Part shown: in pieces, positions 1,958 through 13,110 of the stretch | How positions within the stretch are numbered: position 1 is the stretch's first letter | How the letters are laid out: each line of letters begins with the position of its first letter | From: Telluria mixta | Lineage (GTDB): Bacteria > Pseudomonadota > Gammaproteobacteria > Burkholderiales > Burkholderiaceae_D | Assembly (NCBI RefSeq): GCF_029223865.1 | Contig: NZ_CP119520.1 | Span: 3,162,001-3,226,000, forward strand | Direction of reading: 5' to 3' | Length of the DNA: 64,000 nt | The notes under the pieces: model-generated | Database searches by the model: none | Told to the model about the DNA's origin: nothing | The model's input: the letters and a program-made list of their open reading frames with translations, nothing else | Made by a program: the position numbers and the translations under genes

Positions 1958-4261
1958 TCAGCGCACGCGCCCCTGCATCGCGAGATAGACGCGCGCGCTG
2001 GCCGGATCGTCCGACGTGACGGTGAGCTGGCCGGTGTACAGGCCCGGTCGCTTCGGCTTGCCGTCGGGGCCCGTGCGCACGCTGAGCCGGTACGTGATCG
2101 CGACGCTTTGGCCCGGCTTGAGTGTGACTGGCATCACGCCACCCATCTGCTCGAACGGGTAGTTCGGCCAGAGCAGCACGCGGCCGTCGGAAAAACTCTG
2201 CTGGGAATCCGTCTCGAATTGCGCGTTCTCGCCATATTCGTACTGGCCGCCCTGCGGCGTGCCGTAGTCGACGCCCGTGACGACGAAAATCGTACCGATG
2301 CGGACGTGCAGGTCGGCGTCGCCGCGGTTGGAAAAGATCACCACCCGCCGCGCGCCCGCGCCGCCGACGGCATCGGCCATCGTGATCGGCATGGTCAGCG
2401 CGCCGCCGTTCTGGTGCTTGCCGTCGATGACCAGCTTCGGCTGGGGCCCCGCCGGTACGGGACGCATCGTGATCCAGGGATCGCCTTGCAGGCTCACGGG
2501 CGAGCCTTCCAGGCGGCCGTACACGGTTTCCGCGAAGGTGCTGCCGTTCTGGAGCAGGGCGTATTCGTTCTTGATGATGTCGTCTTCGTAGAGGCTCGTG
2601 ACCGCCGTGACGGTGGTCGTGCCGCGCGTGAGCAGCGCATTCCCGCGCATCAGCAGCGTCGTCCCGACCGAGTCCGGGTACAGGAAGTTCTGCGTGCTGC
2701 AGGACGCCAGTTCGATGTACTTGGCCTTGACGGATTGCGCGGCCACGCTCGACGCGTTCCAGTCGGTGCTGTCGCTCGAATAGAAGACGCCGGGCGTGCC
2801 GGGACCCTCGAAGTCGAGATACTGCGGTGCGCCATGCACGTTCACGACGCACATTTCCGTGTTCTGGCCGATACAGTCGAGGAAGGCGTCGCGCCGTTGT
2901 ACCGACGTGCCCTCGTTCAGGTAGCTGATGGCGCCGGCCGGATACAGGCCGACGTTCGCCCACTTGTCCGATTGATCGCCCCACTGGGCTGCCGGACCGC
3001 CGAACCAGCCGGCTTCGATCATGCGGAAGCGCTGGACCCAGCCCGCATTCGCGCTCGCGCCGGCGCGGTGATAGGCGATCATCTGGTCCAGCTTGTTCGC
3101 CAGTTCGCCCGCTTCCGCCTGGGGGCTGGTCCCGCGCAGGACCGACAGCACCAGGCCGTTCTGGCAGCGCGGGTCGGCCGAATGCAGGGCCAGGGCATTG
3201 AGGACCTGGCCTCCGGCATTCAGGTCGAAGGCGGGGCAATCGGGCAGGCGATACACGTCGAGGAACGGCGCATCGCCGGCGGTGGGGATGGGGACCTGGC
3301 CGACGAGGAGGGCGCCGTCGTAGCCCTCCAATTGGGCACGGATCGCGCTGATGGTAGTGGCGGCGGCGGCGACGTCCACGCTCCACGCGGGGCCGTTACG
3401 GCGCAGGGCGGTCAGGTCGTTGCCCAGCGCGCCGGCCAGCGCGGCTAGGCGGGTGCCGTTGTCGGCCAGGCGTTCCGGGGCCGCGAGCAGGAGAATCCTG
3501 CGCGTGCCCGGCACCGCCTCGTCGAACTTGCCGGCAGCGAGATCGGCGAGGCGTCCGATGGTGGCGTCGATATTCGCCTGCACGGCGGCGTCGTCGGCCA
3601 TGCCGGCCACGTTGTGCATCAGGCCGCGTACGATGGTGTTCGCGATGTGGCCGTCGTACAAGGCGCGCTGCCCGGCCGCATCGAGCGTACGCGTGAACTG
3701 CACGGCGGCCCGCACCTTGCGCGTCGCCAGGTCGGCGTCCGTCCCCTGGGCGCCGGCCAGCACGGACAACAGGACGTTCGCCCGCGTGACGCCGTGCAGG
3801 TTGAGCGCATCGACCCAGAACTTGTCGCCGGCCGCGTCCGGGTAATGCGAAAACAGGTTCTGGTACAGGGCGAGTACCCATTCCGCGTCGTAGCAGGTGA
3901 TCACGCAGACGGGATAGAGCTGCTTCGATTCCTCGCTCGCGGCGAAGGCATCGACCAGGTTGCGCACGGCGGCATTCGTCCCGTAAGCATCGAACAGGCC
4001 CCCGATCGTGGTCGGAGCCCCGGCCGCGCGGTAGGCTTTCGTGAAGTAGGCCAGGCCGGCAGGATCGGCGGGACGGCCGAAGTAGCCGAGGTACAGCTGC
4101 TGCACCAGGTATTCGTATTCCGCATCCACGCTCGCCGGGGTGCCGAGGGCGGCGGCGGTGCGCTCGGCACCGGTGTGCTGCACCGGTTGCTGGTCGCCGC
4201 CGCAGGACGCCAGGAGGACAACAAGCAGGGCCGAGGCGGCGGCCCGGATCAGTGTGCGCAT
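1958..4261 (-). CDS. Large lipoprotein: DUF4214-like domain, caspase-like (clan CD) His/Cys pair, C-terminal Ig-like domain
   Basis: A 767-residue protein with a lipoprotein signal (LLASC, lipidated Cys20). Residues ~48-200 carry DUF4214-like motifs (LYLGYFGRPADPAGLAYF) as found in surface and S-layer-associated proteins. In the middle, VVNVHGAPQY (His ~472) and, about 48 residues on, IELASCSTQNF (Cys ~520) look like the catalytic His-Gly and Cys of clan CD peptidases (gingipain, caspase, C11); GNALLTRGTTTV follows, as in gingipain-like folds. The last ~120 residues are beta-rich (VVIFSNRGDADLHV ... LTVTSDDP), like ASH/DUF1573 Ig domains. What is seen is the motifs; peptidase activity is inference. 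It stands alone, convergent with the EamA gene. The Lol-pathway position +2 residue is Gly, so an outer-membrane location is likely. Confidence 0.75.
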   Translation of the reverse strand: MRTLIRAAASALLVVLLASCGGDQQPVQHTGAERTAAALGTPASVDAEYEYLVQQLYLGYFGRPADPAGLAYFTKAYRAAGAPTTIGGLFDAYGTNAAVRNLVDAFAASEESKQLYPVCVITCYDAEWVLALYQNLFSHYPDAAGDKFWVDALNLHGVTRANVLLSVLAGAQGTDADLATRKVRAAVQFTRTLDAAGQRALYDGHIANTIVRGLMHNVAGMADDAAVQANIDATIGRLADLAAGKFDEAVPGTRRILLLAAPERLADNGTRLAALAGALGNDLTALRRNGPAWSVDVAAAATTISAIRAQLEGYDGALLVGQVPIPTAGDAPFLDVYRLPDCPAFDLNAGGQVLNALALHSADPRCQNGLVLSVLRGTSPQAEAGELANKLDQMIAYHRAGASANAGWVQRFRMIEAGWFGGPAAQWGDQSDKWANVGLYPAGAISYLNEGTSVQRRDAFLDCIGQNTEMCVVNVHGAPQYLDFEGPGTPGVFYSSDSTDWNASSVAAQSVKAKYIELASCSTQNFLYPDSVGTTLLMRGNALLTRGTTTVTAVTSLYEDDIIKNEYALLQNGSTFAETVYGRLEGSPVSLQGDPWITMRPVPAGPQPKLVIDGKHQNGGALTMPITMADAVGGAGARRVVIFSNRGDADLHVRIGTIFVVTGVDYGTPQGGQYEYGENAQFETDSQQSFSDGRVLLWPNYPFEQMGGVMPVTLKPGQSVAITYRLSVRTGPDGKPKRPGLYTGQLTVTSDDPASARVYLAMQGRVR

Positions 4262-4321
4262 GGGGGAGGTGAGTGGAACGAAACCCCCATGCTATTCGAT
4301 ATAAACCGTTTTGTGTAAATA

Positions 4322-5599
4322 TTAAGCAGGCATCATGCGCCGGAACAGCAGGCTCGCGTTGACGCCGCCGAACCCGAACCCGTTCGAGATCGCATAGTCC
4401 GTCGCAATCGCGCGCGCCGCGCCGCCGACGACGTCGACGCCTTCCGCCGCCGCATCGGGCTGCACAAGGTTCAAGGTCGGCGGCGCCACCTGGTCGCGCA
4501 GGGCGAGCACGGTGAAGATGGCTTCCACGCCGCCGGCCGCGCCGAGCAGATGGCCCGTCGCGGACTTGGTGGCCGAGACGGCGGGGCCCCGTCCCGCGCC
4601 AAAGATGGTCTTGATGGCGGCCAGTTCGCTCACGTCGCCCACCGGCGTGGACGTCGCGTGGGCATTCAGGTGCCCGATGAGTTCGGGCGCGACGCCGGCC
4701 TGCCGGATCGCCTGTGCCATCGCGCGCCGTCCGCCGTCGCCGTCCTCGGGCGGGGACGTCATGTGGTACGCATCGGCACTGGTGCCATAGCCGACCAGTT
4801 CCGCGATCGGCACCGCGCCGCGGCGCAGCGCGTGCTCCAGCTCTTCGATGACGAGGATGCCGGCACCTTCGCCCATCACGAAGCCGTCGCGCGCCGCATC
4901 GAATGGACGCGATGCCTGCGTGGGATCGTCGTTGAAGCTGGTGGACATCGTCCGCGCGGCGGCGAACGCGCCGAAGCTGACCCGGTCGATGCACGCCTCG
5001 GCGCCGCCGCACACGGCGACGTCGGCCTCGCCCCCACGGATCAGGCGCGCGGCATCGCCGATGGCCTGTGCGCTCGCGGCGCATGCCGTCACGGGCGCAC
5101 CCAGCGGACCGCGCAGGCCGTGGCGGATCGAGATCTGCCCGGCCGCCATATTGGCCAGGAAGCTCGGCACGGTGAACGGCGACAGGCGCCGCGGTCCGCG
5201 GCCGTCTGTGGTGCGCACGGCTTCCACAATGGCGCCAAAGCCGCCGATGCCGGATGCCACGATGGTGGCCGTGCGTTCGCGCTCATCGTCGGTCTGCGGC
5301 TGCCAGCCGGCCTGCTGCAAGGCTTCCCTGGCAGCGGCCAGCGCGAACATGCTGAACCGGTCCATCTTCTTCTGGTCCTTCGGTTCCACGAAGCGGTCGG
5401 CATCGAAGCCCCACGGGCGGTCGTCCGTCAACGCCGGCACGACGCCGGCAACCTTGGCCGGAATCGCTTCCGTGATCTCCTCGGACAGGCCGACCAGGCC
5501 GGACTCGCCCTTCAACAGGCGTCCCCACGCGGTTTCGACCCCACAGCCCAACGGCGACACCAGGCCCATGCCGGTCACGACGATGCGTTTCGTATTCAC
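4322..5599 (-). CDS. Beta-ketoacyl-ACP synthase II (FabF-type)
   Basis: A 425-residue condensing enzyme that would elongate acyl-ACP with malonyl-ACP. The Cys-His-His triad is complete: VTACAASAQAI, NAHATSTPVGD and KSATGHLLGAAG, with the C-terminal glycine-rich GFGFGGVNASL. A GTG at 5599 is preferred over an in-frame ATG 24 bp upstream because GGGGAG lies 6 bases before the GTG and the protein then begins NTKRIVVTGMG, the standard family start. The main fatty-acid cluster (fabH-fabD-fabG-acpP) is not nearby, so this is probably a second, specialised synthase. It is divergent from an AraC regulator across a 127-bp gap full of GCGCCA motifs and is likely controlled by it (inference). Confidence 0.92.
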   Translation of the reverse strand: MNTKRIVVTGMGLVSPLGCGVETAWGRLLKGESGLVGLSEEITEAIPAKVAGVVPALTDDRPWGFDADRFVEPKDQKKMDRFSMFALAAAREALQQAGWQPQTDDERERTATIVASGIGGFGAIVEAVRTTDGRGPRRLSPFTVPSFLANMAAGQISIRHGLRGPLGAPVTACAASAQAIGDAARLIRGGEADVAVCGGAEACIDRVSFGAFAAARTMSTSFNDDPTQASRPFDAARDGFVMGEGAGILVIEELEHALRRGAVPIAELVGYGTSADAYHMTSPPEDGDGGRRAMAQAIRQAGVAPELIGHLNAHATSTPVGDVSELAAIKTIFGAGRGPAVSATKSATGHLLGAAGGVEAIFTVLALRDQVAPPTLNLVQPDAAAEGVDVVGGAARAIATDYAISNGFGFGGVNASLLFRRMMPA

Positions 5600-5618
5600 T
5601 TCATGCTCCCCAAAGGTT

Positions 5619-5716
5619 TGCAAAATGCGCCACTTGGCGCAGAATTAAGCGCCAGTATAGGGAGGTTGCGTAGCAAAAGTTGGTGCATCGCGCCAATCAG
5701 TATGCAAAACGCGCCA
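5619..5716. promoter_or_regulatory. Cluster of GCGCCA operator-like motifs between fabF-type gene and araC-type gene
   Basis: The divergent gap holds a perfect inverted repeat TGCGCCA-CT-TGGCGCA at 5626-5641 and a direct repeat TGCAAAAtGCGCCA (5619-5632) / TGCAAAAcGCGCCA (5703-5716), 13 of 14 identical. Further GCGCCA copies lie at about 5649 and 5693. The two direct repeats are placed close to the two divergent start codons. Their arrangement suggests binding sites for the neighbouring AraC regulator acting on both genes; this is inference. Confidence 0.5.
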
Positions 5717-5726
5717 TAATTACGGC

Positions 5727-6737
5727 ATGATCACGCTCTCTGCCCACTTCCTGCACGGGATGCTGCACGCCATCCGCGCCCGGCACGGCGACGACGTGGC
5801 GGCGCAGGTGCTCGCCGGTGCCGCGATTCCGCCATCGCTGCTCGACCAGCCCGACGCGCGCCTCACGCGCCAGCAATACGTCGCGCTGTACCGGACGATC
5901 GCGGCGACGCTCGACGACGAGATGCTGGGATTGTGGTCCCGGCCGATCCGCGGCGGCACGCTGAAGTACCTGATGCTCAGCCTTCTGGACGCGCCGACGG
6001 TGCTGGTCGCGCTCAACCGCCTGGTGCGCTTCTGGAACCTGCTGCTGGACGACTACCGGCTGCAGATCTCGACGAAGAACGACCTGGTGCGCCTCGCCTT
6101 GGTGGAACGGGCGCCGGGCACGCCCGTCACGCCGCTGGGCCACGAGCTGATGATGAAGCTGATCCACGGGATCGCCTCGTGGCTGCTCGGCCGCGAGATC
6201 AGCCTGCACCGCATCGACTTCACCTTCGCCCGCCCGCGGCATGCGGAAGATCACGCGTTCCTGTTCCCCGGCGAGGTGCGCTTCGACGCGGACGTGACGT
6301 GCATTTATTTTTCCTACGCGGATTGCGCCGAACAGTTCAAGCGCGAGAAACACGAGCTGTGGGCATTCCTGAAACGCGCGCCGGAAGACTGGACGTTCAG
6401 CGCCGGCCAGCGTGGCACCCTGATGGCGAGGACGCGCGCCTATCTCGAGCAGCACATCGCGCAGCCGGTGACGATCCAGGATCTCGCGCAGGCCCTGCAC
6501 GTCTCCGTGCGCACGCTCAACCGGCGCTTCGCGGAAGAGGGCACGCGCTTCCAGCTGGTGAAGGATGGCCTGCGGCGCGACATCGCCGTCCACCGGCTCG
6601 CCAATTCGAACACGGGCGTGGCGGCGCTGGCGTACGACCTGGGCTTCGCGGACGCCACCGGATTTTGCCGCGCCTTCAAGCAGTGGACGGGCAGCAGCCC
6701 GACCGATTATCGCAAGGGCAATCGTCAGGGCGAGTGA
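5727..6737 (+). CDS. AraC-family transcriptional regulator (arabinose-binding-like N-domain)
   Basis: 336 residues. Residues ~20-200 resemble the PF12625-type ligand domain seen in regulators such as OruR (SLLDAPTVLVALNRLVRFWNL near residue 90). Residues ~235-330 form the double helix-turn-helix AraC DNA-binding domain (VTIQDLAQALHVSVRTLNRRF and the second helix-turn-helix ending GSSPTDYR). It is divergent from a lone FabF-type synthase, with repeated GCGCCA motifs between, so it probably controls that gene and itself; regulators of this architecture often answer to fatty acids or small carbon compounds. The 3' end overlaps the pectinesterase gene on the other strand by 13 bp. Confidence 0.9.
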   Translation: MITLSAHFLHGMLHAIRARHGDDVAAQVLAGAAIPPSLLDQPDARLTRQQYVALYRTIAATLDDEMLGLWSRPIRGGTLKYLMLSLLDAPTVLVALNRLVRFWNLLLDDYRLQISTKNDLVRLALVERAPGTPVTPLGHELMMKLIHGIASWLLGREISLHRIDFTFARPRHAEDHAFLFPGEVRFDADVTCIYFSYADCAEQFKREKHELWAFLKRAPEDWTFSAGQRGTLMARTRAYLEQHIAQPVTIQDLAQALHVSVRTLNRRFAEEGTRFQLVKDGLRRDIAVHRLANSNTGVAALAYDLGFADATGFCRAFKQWTGSSPTDYRKGNRQGE

Positions 6738-8215
6738 GGCGTCCAGCCGCCCAGCACCCAGGCCGGATCGCGGTAGTGCGCGATCGTGTCCGCGTCGCGG
6801 TCCCTATCGAGCTGGCGCGATGCCGGATGCCGCTTGCCGACGTCCACCGGCTTGCCGTCCGCAGCGCGGCTGTTGAATTCCCAGAACCGTACGTGCGACG
6901 CATCGCCGTCGACGGGCCCCCAGCCTTCCGGCGCGATGCCGGTCAGGGTCGCATCCAGCAGCACCGCTTCCGCGTACGGATAATTGCGGCCCTTGTTGTC
7001 GGGCAGGCGCGCGAGGACAGTCTCCCCGCCGGTCGCATGGAACGTGCAGCGGTCGAACACGTTGCCGTGATTCGCTTGCGTATTCCGAATCCACATGAAC
7101 GCGCCGCGCGAGGTGATGTCACAGTGGCGGAAGTACGCGGGACCGCGGCCGAGGATCGTGTCGCCGGTGCCCGTCAGGCGAATGTTCTCGAAGTACGCGC
7201 TGCCGTTCGTCTGCAGCGCGTCGCCGGCGCCTTCGACCGTCACGTCCCTGACGATGGTGCGCTCGCCGTTGAGCAGCAGGCCTTCCGCCTGCCCGTTCGC
7301 CGTCGTCGCGATGGTGAGGTTGTCCAGCACCATGTCGTGCACATGGTCGAGCGCGAACGCCGCGCGCCGCGACGGGAACGTGCCCGGCAACTCGTTCGTG
7401 CCGACGTTCGGCGGGTGCGGATTGAACACCTCGTTGTTCGCGTAATGGATGCGCACGCCCTCGCGGCTTTCGCCCCGCACCGTGACGTCGTGCTTGTTGC
7501 GGGCGTAGACGATTTCCTCGTAGTCGCCGTTCTTCACGAACACCGTGACGCGGCCGGTGTGCCGGTCCGGCACCCAGTCGAGCGCGCCCTGCACGGTGTC
7601 GAAATCGCCGCTGCCGTCCGCCGCCACGGTCACGCGGCGCGCATCCGCAGCCGGCGCGCGGGCCTTCGTCGTGAAGCGCCAGTCCCTGACGCCCTCGAAG
7701 CTGCCGTCGGCCATCGTCAGCACGCCCGGATCGATCCGCACGTAATACGTCTTCCCGTAGCGGAGCAGGTCGTGGTGCGGGTAGATCGTGGCCGCGTTGC
7801 CGTGCACGATCACGGGGTGGAAATGAAAACCGTCCGTGAAGCCGCCGATGATCGTCAGCTGGTAGTTGCCGGCGGCGGGCGCGACGCCCGGTGCGGACGG
7901 CGTGCCGGGCTTCGTATCGGCATTGCTCCGGCGCGGTCCGTCGTACTCGTACGGCGTGGCGAGGTACGGGGGATACGGACCGGCCGCGCGTTCCGTGGGG
8001 CCGGCCGGGATGCCCATGTCCAGTTCGTCGACCAGGCGGTCGTCGGCCGCGTCGTAGATGCGGATCCTGCCGGCGTGGCCGATGGTCGGCGGGCTGGCGA
8101 AGCGGAGTACGAGATGCGTGTCCGGATTGACGTTGGTGGCGCCGTTCGGTGGAAGCTGGGTGGCGGCACCGGCCGGGGTGCAGAGGGCGAGGACGGCAAG
8201 GAACGCGGGTTTCAT
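6725..8215 (-). CDS. Secreted pectinesterase (carbohydrate esterase family 8) with N-terminal Ig-like domain
   Basis: A 496-residue exported enzyme that would remove methyl esters from homogalacturonan. The start at 8215 gives a signal peptide (MKPAFLAVLALCTPAGAA) preceded by GGAGA; the longer open frame upstream is untranslated-looking. Residues ~20-130 resemble a bacterial Ig-like SbsA domain (NGATNVNPDTHLVLRF). The beta-helix follows: GDFDTVQGALDWVPD opens the CE8 domain, DALQTNGSAYFENI carries the conserved Gln, GTGDTILGRG the first catalytic Asp region, and GAFMWIRNT is near the second. No pectate lyase or uronate genes are adjacent, so it works as a stand-alone secreted enzyme or with genes elsewhere. 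Confidence 0.85.
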   Translation of the reverse strand: MKPAFLAVLALCTPAGAATQLPPNGATNVNPDTHLVLRFASPPTIGHAGRIRIYDAADDRLVDELDMGIPAGPTERAAGPYPPYLATPYEYDGPRRSNADTKPGTPSAPGVAPAAGNYQLTIIGGFTDGFHFHPVIVHGNAATIYPHHDLLRYGKTYYVRIDPGVLTMADGSFEGVRDWRFTTKARAPAADARRVTVAADGSGDFDTVQGALDWVPDRHTGRVTVFVKNGDYEEIVYARNKHDVTVRGESREGVRIHYANNEVFNPHPPNVGTNELPGTFPSRRAAFALDHVHDMVLDNLTIATTANGQAEGLLLNGERTIVRDVTVEGAGDALQTNGSAYFENIRLTGTGDTILGRGPAYFRHCDITSRGAFMWIRNTQANHGNVFDRCTFHATGGETVLARLPDNKGRNYPYAEAVLLDATLTGIAPEGWGPVDGDASHVRFWEFNSRAADGKPVDVGKRHPASRQLDRDRDADTIAHYRDPAWVLGGWTPHSP

Positions 8216-8311
8216 GGTCTCCGTGGAAGGCAGCCTGTCGTCGGCCCATTGTAGTGTGGTCGGTCCGGATCGACAAGTGGTCCAGCCGGATTGCGGCGCT
8301 GTCCCGGAATG

Positions 8312-8361
8312 ACAACAGCTGTTGTTACGAGAATTGCCTCGTGGAATCAAAGTGTTACAAT
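8312..8361 (+). promoter_or_regulatory. Promoter and 14-bp palindrome upstream of the diguanylate cyclase
   Basis: A perfect palindrome ACAACAGCTGTTGT occupies 8312-8325. Just downstream is a sigma-70-like promoter: TTGCCT at 8334-8339, a 16-bp spacer, and TACAAT at 8356-8361, with transcription expected near 8368. The palindrome would lie near -50, a usual place for a regulator. No Shine-Dalgarno sequence is obvious before the ATG at 8401. Confidence 0.5.
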
Positions 8362-8400
8362 CGATGTCCGCCTGTCCGCGACATCCCCGGCGACACTTCC

Positions 8401-9447
8401 ATGCCCAACGAACTCATCCAGCTTCCCCAATCCGAACTGCTCGAATACCTCCGTCGCCAGGTCGACAAGATGGCCGAACTCGAGCAGAAGATCGCTGGCC
8501 TCGAACAAGACCGCGAGGAATTGTTGCGCGTGGCGTGCAACGTCGACTCGCGCCTGCGCGAATACGAGGAAATCAAGGAAGGGTGGGACTGGTTCTTTGC
8601 GAACTCGCTCGACATGCTCATCGTGCACGGCCTGGACGGGCGCCTGCTGCGCGTGAATCCGGCCGTCGAACGCCTGCTGGGCTATACGCCGGAGGAGTTC
8701 ATGCGCCTGCCGCTGGAGGACAGCGCGCACCCGGACGACCTGGCGGACGTGCTCACGCATCTGCGCACGATCGCCGAGGGCACCGACGGCGTGAACTTCG
8801 AGGCACGCACGCGTCACAAGGATGGCCGCTACCGCTGGCTCGCCTGGACCACGCCGGCGCCGACCAAGGACGGGCGCGCGATGACGCACACGTATGCGAT
8901 CGCGCGCGACGTCACGGAATCCCGCCTGACGCAGCAGGAATTGTTGTATCGCGCCCAGCACGACGCGTTGACGGGCCTGGCCAACCGGGCCGCGTTCGAC
9001 CATGAGGTCGGGCTGGCGCTCGCACGCGCCGAGCGGCTGGCGAGTCCGGTGTCGCTGCTCCTGATCGACCTGGACGGCTTCAAGCAGGTCAACGACACGC
9101 TGGGTCACCTGGCCGGCGACGACGTGCTGCGCACGGTTGCGGCACGGCTGCGTGCGGCCAGCCGCAAGGGCGACCTGGTGGCGCGCCTCGGCGGCGACGA
9201 GTTCGCCTGCCTCACGACCGGTCCGTCCCGTGCGGCGCTGGATGCACTGGCCGTGCGCATGCTGAATGTCGTGTGCGAACCGGTCGCGGTGGGCGACGTG
9301 CGGGCGCAGGTCGGTTGCAGCATCGGCATCGCGACCGCCGATGGCGACTTCGATCCCGTGCGCCTGTTCGCCGCGGCCGACCGCGCCATGTACGGCGTCA
9401 AGGCGCGCGGCAAGGGCGATGTCGCGCACGCTGCCGCGCCAGCCTGA
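8401..9447 (+). CDS. PAS-GGDEF diguanylate cyclase
   Basis: 348 residues, predicted to make the second messenger cyclic di-GMP from two GTP. Residues ~1-55 form a coiled coil (LEQKIAGLEQDREELL), ~60-175 a PAS/PAC sensor (DMLIVHGLDGRLLRVNPAVE; HKDGRYRWLAWT) and ~185-345 the GGDEF domain. The active-site motif GGDEF (~residue 263) is intact, and RKGD five residues before it is a complete allosteric inhibition site, so the protein should be active and product-inhibited. There is no transmembrane segment, so it is cytosolic. The open frame extends far upstream, but the ATG at 8401 fits the promoter at 8334-8361 and the domain start. It converges with the alcohol dehydrogenase gene, 4 bp apart. 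Confidence 0.92.
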   Translation: MPNELIQLPQSELLEYLRRQVDKMAELEQKIAGLEQDREELLRVACNVDSRLREYEEIKEGWDWFFANSLDMLIVHGLDGRLLRVNPAVERLLGYTPEEFMRLPLEDSAHPDDLADVLTHLRTIAEGTDGVNFEARTRHKDGRYRWLAWTTPAPTKDGRAMTHTYAIARDVTESRLTQQELLYRAQHDALTGLANRAAFDHEVGLALARAERLASPVSLLLIDLDGFKQVNDTLGHLAGDDVLRTVAARLRAASRKGDLVARLGGDEFACLTTGPSRAALDALAVRMLNVVCEPVAVGDVRAQVGCSIGIATADGDFDPVRLFAAADRAMYGVKARGKGDVAHAAAPA

Positions 9448-9451
9448 GCGA

Positions 9452-10480
9452 TCAGGCGAAATCCGCGTCCAGCACGATCCGGTAGCTCGCCTTGCCGGCG
9501 CGCAGATGGTCCATCGCGTCGTTCACGCGGCGCATCGGGAAATGCTCGACCTTCGGCGCCACGTGGTGGTGGGTGGCGAAGCGCAGCATCGTGTCGATCT
9601 GGGCGCGGCTGCCCGTCGGCGACGCCGAGATCGCGCGCTGGCCCATGATCAGGCTCATGACCTGCACCGGCACGGGCTGCAGCACGGCGCCGAGGAAGTG
9701 CAGGCGGCCGCCGGGCGCGAGCAGTGCGATGACGGCATCCCAGTCGAGCGGCGCGTTGGCCGTGATGAAGACGAAATCGAAGCTGCCCGCGAGGCGCTGC
9801 AGGTCGGCGTCGGAGCGGCTCGAGGCCGTGTGGTGGGCGCCCAAGCTCATCGCTTCCTGCACCTTGCTGGGCGAAGACGTGAACGCCGTCACGTCGCAGC
9901 CCCAGGCCCTGGTGAACATCAGCGCCATGTGTCCGAGACCACCGATGCCGAACACCGCCACGCGCGCCGTCGGCGGCACGTGCAGCTGCAACAGCGGCGC
10001 GAACACGGTGATGCCGCCGCACAGCAGCGGGCCGGCGTTCTGCGCCGCCAGCGCGCCGGGAATCGGGATGGTCCAGATCCAGTGGGCGCGCACGCGGTCG
10101 GCAAAGGCGCCGTGGTGGCCCACGATGGTCGCCTGCACGCTGGCGCACAGGTGAAAATCGCCACGGAGGCAGGCCGCGCAGTGCTGGCAGCTGCGCACGT
10201 TCCAGCCCACGCCCACGCGCTGGCCGACCGACAGGCCCTTGGTCGCGGCGATGGCACCGAGCGCGGCCACGCGGCCGATGGCTTCGTGGCCGGGCACGAA
10301 CGGGAACGCCGTGATGCCCCATTCGTTGTCCAGCATGGAGAGGTCGGAATGGCAGACGCCGCAATGCTCGACCTCGACCTCCACGTCTTCCGGTCCCAGC
10401 GGGCCCGGGTCATATGCGAACGGTGCCAAAGGGCCGCCGGCCGTGGCCGCGGCCCATGCCCTGATCGTGCCGGTATTCAT
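9452..10480 (-). CDS. Zinc-dependent NADP(H) alcohol dehydrogenase (YahK/CAD-like)
   Basis: 342 residues of the medium-chain dehydrogenase family that interconverts alcohols and aldehydes. Catalytic zinc ligands are in HCGVCHSDL (Cys ~40), PGHEAIG (His ~63) and GPLLCGGIT (third Cys). The four structural-zinc cysteines are in CQHCAACLRGDFHLC. The cofactor-binding fold has FGIGGLGHMALMF. The ATG at 10480 is preceded by GGAGG at good distance. It reads toward the diguanylate cyclase and away from the lytS operon; nothing nearby fixes its substrate. Probably an aldehyde reductase of broad range (family inference). Confidence 0.9.
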   Translation of the reverse strand: MNTGTIRAWAAATAGGPLAPFAYDPGPLGPEDVEVEVEHCGVCHSDLSMLDNEWGITAFPFVPGHEAIGRVAALGAIAATKGLSVGQRVGVGWNVRSCQHCAACLRGDFHLCASVQATIVGHHGAFADRVRAHWIWTIPIPGALAAQNAGPLLCGGITVFAPLLQLHVPPTARVAVFGIGGLGHMALMFTRAWGCDVTAFTSSPSKVQEAMSLGAHHTASSRSDADLQRLAGSFDFVFITANAPLDWDAVIALLAPGGRLHFLGAVLQPVPVQVMSLIMGQRAISASPTGSRAQIDTMLRFATHHHVAPKVEHFPMRRVNDAMDHLRAGKASYRIVLDADFA

Positions 10481-10560
10481 GAGCGCCTCCGTTGGGTGAC
10501 GCAAAAATGCTAGCACCGGCGGGGTTGCGGGCGCGCGCCGTTCGCGCCGCCGCAGGCCGC

Positions 10561-10622
10561 TTCGTCGCACCCGGGCCCGTTTCGTCGCAAGGTTCCCATG
10601 GCCGCACCCCGCGCTCTACACT
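10561..10622 (+). promoter_or_regulatory. Candidate LytTR-type direct repeats and promoter of the lytS-lytR operon
   Basis: Two exact 9-bp direct repeats TTCGTCGCA lie at 10561-10569 and 10581-10589, 20 bp apart, i.e. on the same face of the helix. A -10-like TACACT is at 10617-10622 with a poor -35 region. Paired direct repeats about two turns apart upstream of a weak promoter are the usual target of LytTR response regulators, and such a regulator is the second gene of this operon. Autoregulation is therefore likely but inferred. Confidence 0.5.
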
Positions 10623-10654
10623 GGCGTCTTTCGAGTTGACCAGAGAGCGTTCCG

Positions 10655-12349
10655 ATGTCCGTGTCCAGTCCCGTGCCAGTCTCTTCCGCCATGCCGCTGC
10701 CGCCCGACGTCGTCGTGCACGCCAGCTGGTTCGGCCGCGCGCGCCAGTTTCCCATCTTCAGTATGGCGTGGTTCCGCTACCGCAGCATCGCGTTCCTGAC
10801 CGGGTTGCTCGCGGCGGCGCTGCTGAACGCGGCGCTGGCGGCGATTCCGCTGCAGCCGCAAAACGTCGACTGGGTCGATGTGCTGCGTATCGGCTTCGTG
10901 TTCGGCGTGCCCTGCGTGGTGCTCGTGCTTCTCGGCCCGGGGCTGGCCGTGTGGGTGCGTGCGCGCGGCTGGCCCGTCCGGCGCGAGTTCGCGGGCCTCC
11001 TGTGCATGCTGCTGCTGGGGATGGCGGCCAGCCTGGCCACGGCGTTTCAGCTGAAGCACTGGTATGAGGCGGCGCGTGTCGATCCCGCCACCGGCGGACG
11101 CGTCGTCCATCTGCTGCCGCGCGTGCAGTTCACGGTGAACTGGCAGGCCGGGCCGAGGTTCAGCGTCGAGCCGGGCACGAGTTGGCGCAAGATGAGTCCG
11201 GAGGAGCTGAAGGCGTTCGATGTCCTGCAAAGCGCACAGGCGGCGCTGGCCCGCGTGGCGCCCGCCGGCGAAGTGCCTCTGACCCCTCAGGAATCCGCCG
11301 CCGTGGAGGCTTACCTGAAACTGAAGAGCGCGAACACGTCGTTGACGCCGGCCCAGGAACAGGCCACGCAGGCCGGCCGCGCCGCGTTCGAAAAGCTGCT
11401 GCGCTACCAGGTCGAACAGGGCACGCGGCCGCAACCCGCACGCGCTGCGCCGGCAAGCCCGGCGTACGTGGCGGCCCAGGCGAAGTACGACGAGGCATTG
11501 GCCGAATTCCAGCGTGTCCAGGCGCGGCACGCACCCGCCACGGCGATGCCCGCAGCGGCACCGCGGCCCGGCGGCCACAGCACCGCCGGCACGGCGGGCG
11601 CTGTCGTCATGCTGCTGGCGGTCGTGCTGCTCGTGTGCTGGCTGGGCGGCATCACCGACCTGGTCGCGTTCGTGCGCCAGCGCGGCAAGCTCGATGACGT
11701 GCTGCGCGACCAGGCGCTGCGCCGCGCCGATGCCGCGCGCGTCGAGGCGGAGTTGCGGCTGTCCGTGCTCGCGGCCCAGGTCGAACCGCACTTCCTGTTC
11801 AACACGCTGGCCAGCGTGCGCTCGGCCATCGTGTCCGACCAGGCGCGCGCCGCCGCCATCGTCGACCACCTGGCCGACTACCTGCGCGCGACCATCCCGC
11901 AGATGCGCCACGAAGCCGCGAGCGGCAGCGTGCCGCTGGCCCGCCAGCTCGACGCGGCGCGCGCCTACCTGGCGCTGATGCACGAGCGCATGCCGCGGCT
12001 CGCGTTCGCGGTGGAGGCCGAGCCGGGGCTCGAGGCCGCGCAGGTGCCGCCGCTGATGCTGATCTCGCTCGTCGAGAACGCGGTCAAGCATGGCGTCGAG
12101 CCGAAGGCCGGGCCGGCGCGCATCACGGTGACCGCGCGCCGCGTGGTGGATGCCGGCGTGGCGCTGCTGGAACTGGAGGTGCGCGACGACGGCGTGGGCT
12201 TCGGCAGCGCCACATCCGGCACCGGCGTGGGCCTCGCGAACATTCAGGAGCGCCTCGCGGGGCTGTATGGCGGCACGGCGGGGATGACGCTCAAGGCCTT
12301 GCCCGAGGGAGGCGTTGCGGCTATCCTGCGCCTGCCCCTGACAGCCTGA
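10655..12349 (+). CDS. LytS-type sensor histidine kinase
   Basis: 564 residues. About four transmembrane helices span residues ~45-135 (FLTGLLAAALLNAAL; VLRIGFVFGVPCVVLVLL; FAGLLCMLLLGMAAS), followed by a ~170-residue Ala/Glu-rich, largely extracytoplasmic region and one more helix at ~310-330 (TAGAVVMLLAVVLLVCWL). The His_kinase domain has the phosphoacceptor in QVEPHFLFNTLAS (His ~379), and the ATPase has LVENAVKHG and GTGVGLANIQERL. The PHFLFN box is the signature of kinases paired with LytTR regulators, and one follows 7 bp downstream. The signal sensed is not evident; the repeat-like Ala-rich periplasmic part is unusual in this family. Confidence 0.92.
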   Translation: MSVSSPVPVSSAMPLPPDVVVHASWFGRARQFPIFSMAWFRYRSIAFLTGLLAAALLNAALAAIPLQPQNVDWVDVLRIGFVFGVPCVVLVLLGPGLAVWVRARGWPVRREFAGLLCMLLLGMAASLATAFQLKHWYEAARVDPATGGRVVHLLPRVQFTVNWQAGPRFSVEPGTSWRKMSPEELKAFDVLQSAQAALARVAPAGEVPLTPQESAAVEAYLKLKSANTSLTPAQEQATQAGRAAFEKLLRYQVEQGTRPQPARAAPASPAYVAAQAKYDEALAEFQRVQARHAPATAMPAAAPRPGGHSTAGTAGAVVMLLAVVLLVCWLGGITDLVAFVRQRGKLDDVLRDQALRRADAARVEAELRLSVLAAQVEPHFLFNTLASVRSAIVSDQARAAAIVDHLADYLRATIPQMRHEAASGSVPLARQLDAARAYLALMHERMPRLAFAVEAEPGLEAAQVPPLMLISLVENAVKHGVEPKAGPARITVTARRVVDAGVALLELEVRDDGVGFGSATSGTGVGLANIQERLAGLYGGTAGMTLKALPEGGVAAILRLPLTA

Positions 12350-12356
12350 ACGCACG

Positions 12357-13103
12357 ATGCCCACCGCAATCATCGCCGACGACGAAGACCTGCCGCGCAG
12401 CGAATTGCGCCGGCTGCTGGCCGACGCCTGGCCCGACCTGCGCATCGTGGCCGAATGCGCGGACGGCACCGGCGCGCTCGCGGCCATCGTGCAGCACCGG
12501 CCCGACGTGGCCTTCCTCGACATCCGCATGCCGGGACTGAGTGGCCTGGAGGTGGCGGCCGCGGACGGCGTCACGAACGTCGTGTTCACCACGGCCTACA
12601 GCGCGCACGCGTTCGAGGCGTTCGAGGCGGGCGCGCTCGACTACCTGCTCAAGCCCGTCACGCCCGCGCGGCTGCGCCAGTGCGTCGAGCGCGTGCGGGC
12701 GCGCGCGGGCGTGCACGACCAGGACCTCGGCCGGCGCCTCGCCGACCTGGAACGGCGCCTGCAGCCGCAGGCTGCGCCGCGCATGCGCTGGATCAGCGCC
12801 AGCGTCGGCGACACGATCAAGGTCATTCCCGTCTCGAGCATCCTGTTCTTCCAGTCGGAAGACAAGTACACGCGCGTCGTCGCCACCGACGGCGAGACGC
12901 ATGTGCGCAAATCGCTGAAGGAACTCCTCGACGCGCTCGATCCGGACGAGTTCTGGCAGATCCACCGCGGCGTGGCGGTGCGCGCCGATGCGATCGCCCA
13001 TGCGCGGCGCGACCTGATGGGCCGCATCACCGTGCAGCTGCGCGGCCGCGACGAAGTCTTCCGCGCCAGCCAGACGTTCGCCTGGCGCTTCCGGCCGATG
13101 TGA
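12357..13103 (+). CDS. LytTR-family response regulator
   Basis: 248 residues. The receiver domain (1-120) has the acidic pocket ADDED, the phosphoacceptor in FLDIRMPG (Asp55), the Thr in VFTTAY and the Lys in YLLKPVTP. The C-terminal LytTR domain (~145-245) has FFQSEDKYTRVV and FWQIHRGVAV, which contact DNA in this family. It starts 7 bp after the kinase stop, so the two form an operon and a phosphorelay pair. Two 9-bp direct repeats upstream of the kinase are a plausible binding site. It converges with the pullulanase gene, 7 bp apart. Confidence 0.93.
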   Translation: MPTAIIADDEDLPRSELRRLLADAWPDLRIVAECADGTGALAAIVQHRPDVAFLDIRMPGLSGLEVAAADGVTNVVFTTAYSAHAFEAFEAGALDYLLKPVTPARLRQCVERVRARAGVHDQDLGRRLADLERRLQPQAAPRMRWISASVGDTIKVIPVSSILFFQSEDKYTRVVATDGETHVRKSLKELLDALDPDEFWQIHRGVAVRADAIAHARRDLMGRITVQLRGRDEVFRASQTFAWRFRPM

Positions 13104-13110
13104 TGCGGCC

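Follow-up and report, generated by a model that had tools for sequence, protein, structure and literature searches.

The gingipains RgpB and Kgp (family C25) are marked by a two-part catalytic domain, a His and a Cys at the ends of two strands and a terminal Ig-like domain, and they also carry a large inhibitory prodomain at the N-terminus, with Arg or Lys as the P1 residue (PMC4357240). PorU is a gingipain-related surface enzyme, which joins the cargo of the type IX secretion system (T9SS) to lipopolysaccharide (LPS) (PMC5445135). It also trims this cargo. We analyzed a stretch of 64,000 nucleotides of the Telluria mixta genome (the window) and found that one of its genes encodes a predicted lipoprotein in which a lipobox and a DUF4214 domain precede a catalytic domain of the gingipain type (Table 1). 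Unlike in the gingipains, neither a prodomain nor a T9SS tail was found here, and DUF4214 and the lipobox are present instead; the structural matches to gingipains share 13-16% sequence identity, the S1 Asp and the Trp lid were not identified, and the host belongs to the Massilia group. The likeness to PorU is that of a surface-located relative of the gingipains, but the protein described here is a predicted lipoprotein, and for PorU anchoring by PorV has been proposed (PMC5445135). The peptidase family is already known, and in the portions of the open-licence literature on DUF4214 and peptidases available to us no enzyme combining a lipobox, DUF4214 and a C25-type domain was described, as the original prediction had supposed.

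Catalytic domain and its assignment to family C25

About 5.8 billion proteins were searched; the 7995 candidates sharing most words were scored, and 65 sequences reached E<=0.001, including the window protein (P0001). P0001 and 51 homologs were aligned, with identity to the window protein down to 33%; left out were five partial sequences (P0018, P0021, P0029, P0031, P0041) and P0058-P0065, whose coverage was 20-31% and whose domains suggest that mainly DUF4214 is in common. A ten-row alignment of the catalytic domain added P0018, P0029 and a homolog without DUF4214 (L009), and the invariance counts cover neither P0021, P0031 nor P0041.

His476, Gly477 and Cys521 were invariant in all 52 aligned sequences, as were Cys342, Cys366, Cys463, Cys471, Glu485, Asp594 and Pro595, and the His/Cys dyad was invariant again in the ten rows. 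In the predicted structure both dyad residues follow closely on a sheet strand (Table 1), each where its strand ends, as in C25, judged by the strand limits in the model. The ranking of realigned Foldseek candidates placed gingipain (24.6) far ahead of separase (13.8), SAVED-CHAT (13.0) and MALT1 (8.3), and the other clan CD identities (caspase-type MALT1, CHAT, separase) were dropped on this ranking; clostripain (C11) was not among the 50 matches listed, which excludes nothing. The catalytic domain of L047, a protein from a genome of the same class, is a strong C25 match (278.9 bits), found in 1 of the 299 phylum genomes searched. It was colinear with the profile of the family, with HG paired to HG, SCST to TCYS and GDP to GDP, the last motif also ending the catalytic domain of L047. 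On this alignment, the PF01364 matches of homologs and the predicted fold, we filed the lipoprotein as C25-type. Ten homologs were scanned singly, and P0033 (residues 391-580) and P0046 (residues 403-606) passed the PF01364 cut-off; the precomputed database domains gave PF01364 in 3/65 sequences (P0033, P0046 and P0048, the last not confirmed at E<=0.5).

Several observations weigh against this assignment. The window protein had no PF01364 match in Pfam, nor in the genome search, whose controls matched nowhere; PF01364 was found at E<=1 in three of the 52 aligned sequences (49 without); hhalign to the single C25 sequence L047 gave an E of 0.0083 but a probability of 4.8; no gingipain was among Foldseek's own best 50 by E-value, gingipains surfacing after the candidates were realigned; and a strictly conserved S1 acid was not found in the stretches compared. 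The candidate S1 acid, Asp429, was Asp in 39 of the 52 sequences, and no P1 preference was assigned because no strictly conserved counterpart of RgpB Asp163 was recognized. Taking both sides together, we regard a C25-type fold with an intact dyad as nearly certain, and the lipoprotein is probably an active peptidase.

The gingipain marks present here are the catalytic fold, the placement of the dyad and the Ig-like domain after the catalytic domain (residues 605-767). The prodomain had no Pfam match in the window protein, where DUF4214 (residues 46-246) stands in its place; it is seen in gingipains and is not known as a requirement of family C25. In L009 (genome G075), a proline-rich linker instead of DUF4214 follows the lipobox, thus the C25-type domain of this homolog set can occur without DUF4214.

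The original prediction, made from the sequence, of a lipoprotein at 1958..4261 with DUF4214, a peptidase-type dyad and an Ig-like tail was confirmed by Pfam, the lipobox and the predicted structure, and the expected position of His and Cys at strand ends and their invariance in homologs were both observed. The dyad itself stood, with its numbering (~472 and ~520) a few residues off and its spacing 45 rather than 48; the assignment to clan CD was borne out and narrowed to family C25; the proposed PF01364 search retrieved two homologs and not the window protein; and the Ig-like tail, although present, is not part of the novelty, as it is expected in gingipains (PMC4357240).

The DUF4214 front and its relatives

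DUF4214 (PF13946) scored 43.1 bits in the 767-aa protein (cut-off 23.2) and was matched by 50 of the 52 aligned sequences at E<=1. Over query positions 4-199 the domain shared 40% identity with the N-terminal domain of an RsaA-type surface-layer (S-layer) protein from a relative, which by computation points to homology with a domain of RsaA-type proteins; the protein here differs from these in having a lipobox, no S-layer C-terminal domain and no sequence-profile match to the N-terminal domain (NTD) of Caulobacter RsaA. In two loci (L035:1504-3612 and L037:1504-3624), DUF4214 was located at the O-antigen-binding N-terminal position of RsaA and was followed by an RsaA-like S-layer region. Other comparisons speak against the link to RsaA: Foldseek with DUF4214 alone gave no match at E<=0.001 and RsaA was not among the 27 matches listed, the realigned RsaA-NTD match was low for a helical domain and level with phycobilisome linkers, and among PDB sequences the profile of DUF4214 picked out phycobilisome linkers and not RsaA.

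A full-length profile had matches at E<=1e-30 in 33 of 195 family genomes, the window's own included, where at most five candidates were scored per genome so that the counts are lower bounds, and where family means the search tool's own grouping (the named relatives are Massilia, Telluria and Rugamonas, with Telluria in Oxalobacteraceae). Apart from L009 and the gene in the window itself, all the places listed cover just the lipobox-DUF4214 front. By eye, a lipobox precedes DUF4214 in 18 of 28 loci (L010-L037), which have the same front (lipobox, short linker, DUF4214) and, in place of C25, CxxCH cytochrome-like (7), FKBP (2), HExxH (2), NHL-like (3) or unknown (4) domains, and the remaining 10 lack a lipobox and resemble secreted proteins of the RTX or S-layer type. 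Pfam, run on nine of the 18 loci and on P0058, confirmed FKBP in L011 and NHL in L021; of two CxxCH loci, L013 matched cytochrome c just under the cut-off and L010 had no match, L014 and P0058 matched metallopeptidases below the cut-offs, and L016, L018, L020 and L023 had DUF4214 alone. The lipobox-DUF4214 front looks, in these sequences, as if it were reused like a plug-in anchoring module. In the window's genome, DUF4214 had 23 matches in 12 open frames, near the C-terminal end in eight (several with RTX-like repeats by eye) and N-terminal in two others, with L054 not placed. The lactate monooxygenase match of L056 (best E 1.6e-4) was regarded as chance.

Proposed function, distribution and alternatives

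We presume that the best explanation, held with moderate confidence, is a C25-type endopeptidase that a lipid anchors to the outer membrane, facing outward and docked through DUF4214. The protein would be exported by Sec, its signal peptide would be cut at the lipobox and Cys20 would be lipidated. Under the lipoprotein sorting rules a +2 residue of this kind (Gly, no Asp) is read as an outer-membrane destination, and Gly at +2 would direct the protein there, a location that we consider likely; outward display, with DUF4214 as the dock, is somewhat less so, the surface placement being suggested by DUF4214 homology and the lipobox. The catalytic domain (residues 253-604) would cut peptide bonds via the His476/Cys521 dyad, the four other invariant cysteines probably form two disulfides, which may give stability outside the cytoplasm, and the Ig-like domain follows the catalytic domain as in gingipains. 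Since no gingipain prodomain was found, the enzyme would either be active as synthesized or be restrained by DUF4214. The likeliest substrates are extracellular proteins or proteins on the surface of the cell itself. Gingipain-type proteases are best known from Porphyromonas and type IX secretion; the one here would stand on a predicted lipid anchor in Betaproteobacteria of the Massilia group and would illustrate a different way of presenting this enzyme class.

Searched alone, with at most four to six candidates scored per genome, the catalytic domain was matched in three of 245 family genomes, namely G075, G204 (two copies) and that of the window, and in one of 300 order genomes and one of 369 class genomes, both times the window's own. 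The scan found five loci in named genomes: Massilia rhizosphaerae, Telluria aromaticivorans (two), Rugamonas brunnea and Massilia agrisoli. The M. rhizosphaerae protein was 79.8% identical, versus 86.2-97.9% for the neighboring genes in common, and the ratio of nonsynonymous to synonymous substitution (dN/dS) was 0.44 for M. rhizosphaerae, 0.32 for T. aromaticivorans and 0.34 for R. brunnea (0.3-0.5 by domain and pair, mostly not very low). These genes change fast yet are constrained, a pattern common for surface proteins. A further point against the proposal is that no conserved gene partner was found: when four relatives' loci (L042-L045) were set against the window's first 20 kb, M. rhizosphaerae was the sole one keeping common neighbors, and the gene just upstream differs there.

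The main rival, possible but rather unlikely in our judgment, is that the same enzyme, lipid-anchored to the outer membrane's inner leaflet, serves housekeeping or quality control as a protease of the periplasm and that its DUF4214 domain binds LPS or partners in the periplasm. The plain signal with a lipobox may belong to a standard lipoprotein on the periplasmic face, and the CxxCH cytochrome-like and FKBP domains carried by the same front in relatives would suit the periplasm. However, DUF4214 occurs elsewhere in RTX-like and S-layer-type exoproteins here, the gene diverges fast, and its rarity among family genomes would be odd for housekeeping.

By analogy with PorU, which is gingipain-like, located at the surface and attaches A-LPS (PMC5445135), the protein might instead be a surface maturation factor or sortase-like enzyme, and the module joined to its C25-type domain has an O-antigen-binding relative; we consider this role improbable. 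No NF033707 or PF18962 match, that is, no PorU family or T9SS tail match, was found in the window's genome, where the controls matched only below the cut-off and absence was weakly tested, the T9SS sortase model was not among the eight NCBIfam families listed for the 52 sequences, and no conserved substrate or partner gene lies alongside. A catalytically dead C25-type scaffold that only binds, with which the lack of a strictly conserved S1 acid in the stretches compared, the lack of a prodomain match and the mostly not very low dN/dS would agree, is slightly more improbable again, because a dead enzyme would not need such conservation of His, the next Gly and Cys. The least probable proposal of all is that DUF4214 holds O-antigen and that the C25-type domain, sortase-like but outside T9SS, trims proteins of the surface and attaches them to LPS; if true, Betaproteobacteria would have an LPS-based system of protein display, in which the lipobox-DUF4214 front would serve as a general plug-in chassis.

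Gene features and surroundings

Table 1. Features of the lipoprotein gene, in window positions.
Feature	Position	Strand	Evidence
Whole gene, 767-aa lipoprotein with C25-type domain	1958..4261	-	65 database matches at E<=0.001, own sequence included
Predicted signal peptide and lipobox LASC, Cys20 (codon 4202-4204); +2 residue Gly, no Asp	4202..4261	-	sequence, by eye
DUF4214 domain, residues 46-246, all-helical	3524..4126	-	Pfam; model pLDDT 93.4; comparison with RsaA-type N-terminal domain
C25/gingipain-type catalytic domain, residues 253-604	2450..3505	-	predicted structure, fold ranking, L047 alignment, PF01364 in homologs
Catalytic His476 codon, motif CVVNVHGAP	2834..2836	-	invariant 52/52; two residues past strand 468-474
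Catalytic Cys521 codon, motif ELASCST	2699..2701	-	invariant 52/52; two residues past strand 515-519
Gly593-Asp594-Pro595 (GDP motif)	2477..2485	-	invariant 52/52; aligned to GDP of L047
Span with other invariant cysteines Cys342, Cys366, Cys463, Cys471	2849..3238	-	52/52
C-terminal Ig-like / PapD-like domain, residues 605-767	1961..2449	-	predicted structure, fold search

The lipobox column of the alignment had Cys in 47 of the 52 sequences, with four gaps and one Trp. The N-termini of P0056 and P0057 (the latter from Telluria aromaticivorans) look by eye like ordinary signal peptides without a lipobox, and some such homologs may be soluble. Choice-of-anchor-D was weakly matched in the C-terminal region of 25 of the 52 sequences (E<=0.1). 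A PDB sequence search with the 767-aa protein gave no matches, and its profile gave six weak ones (two designed Ig-like proteins, a lipoprotein signal, a DUF3992 protein and chaperonins). A promoter scan found no promoter-like site and two terminator-like sites versus 1.1 expected. Window positions 4262-13110 are absent from this place in M. rhizosphaerae (L042). Within them, 60 bp upstream of the lipoprotein gene, positions 4322-5623 resemble by eye a beta-ketoacyl-ACP synthase gene.
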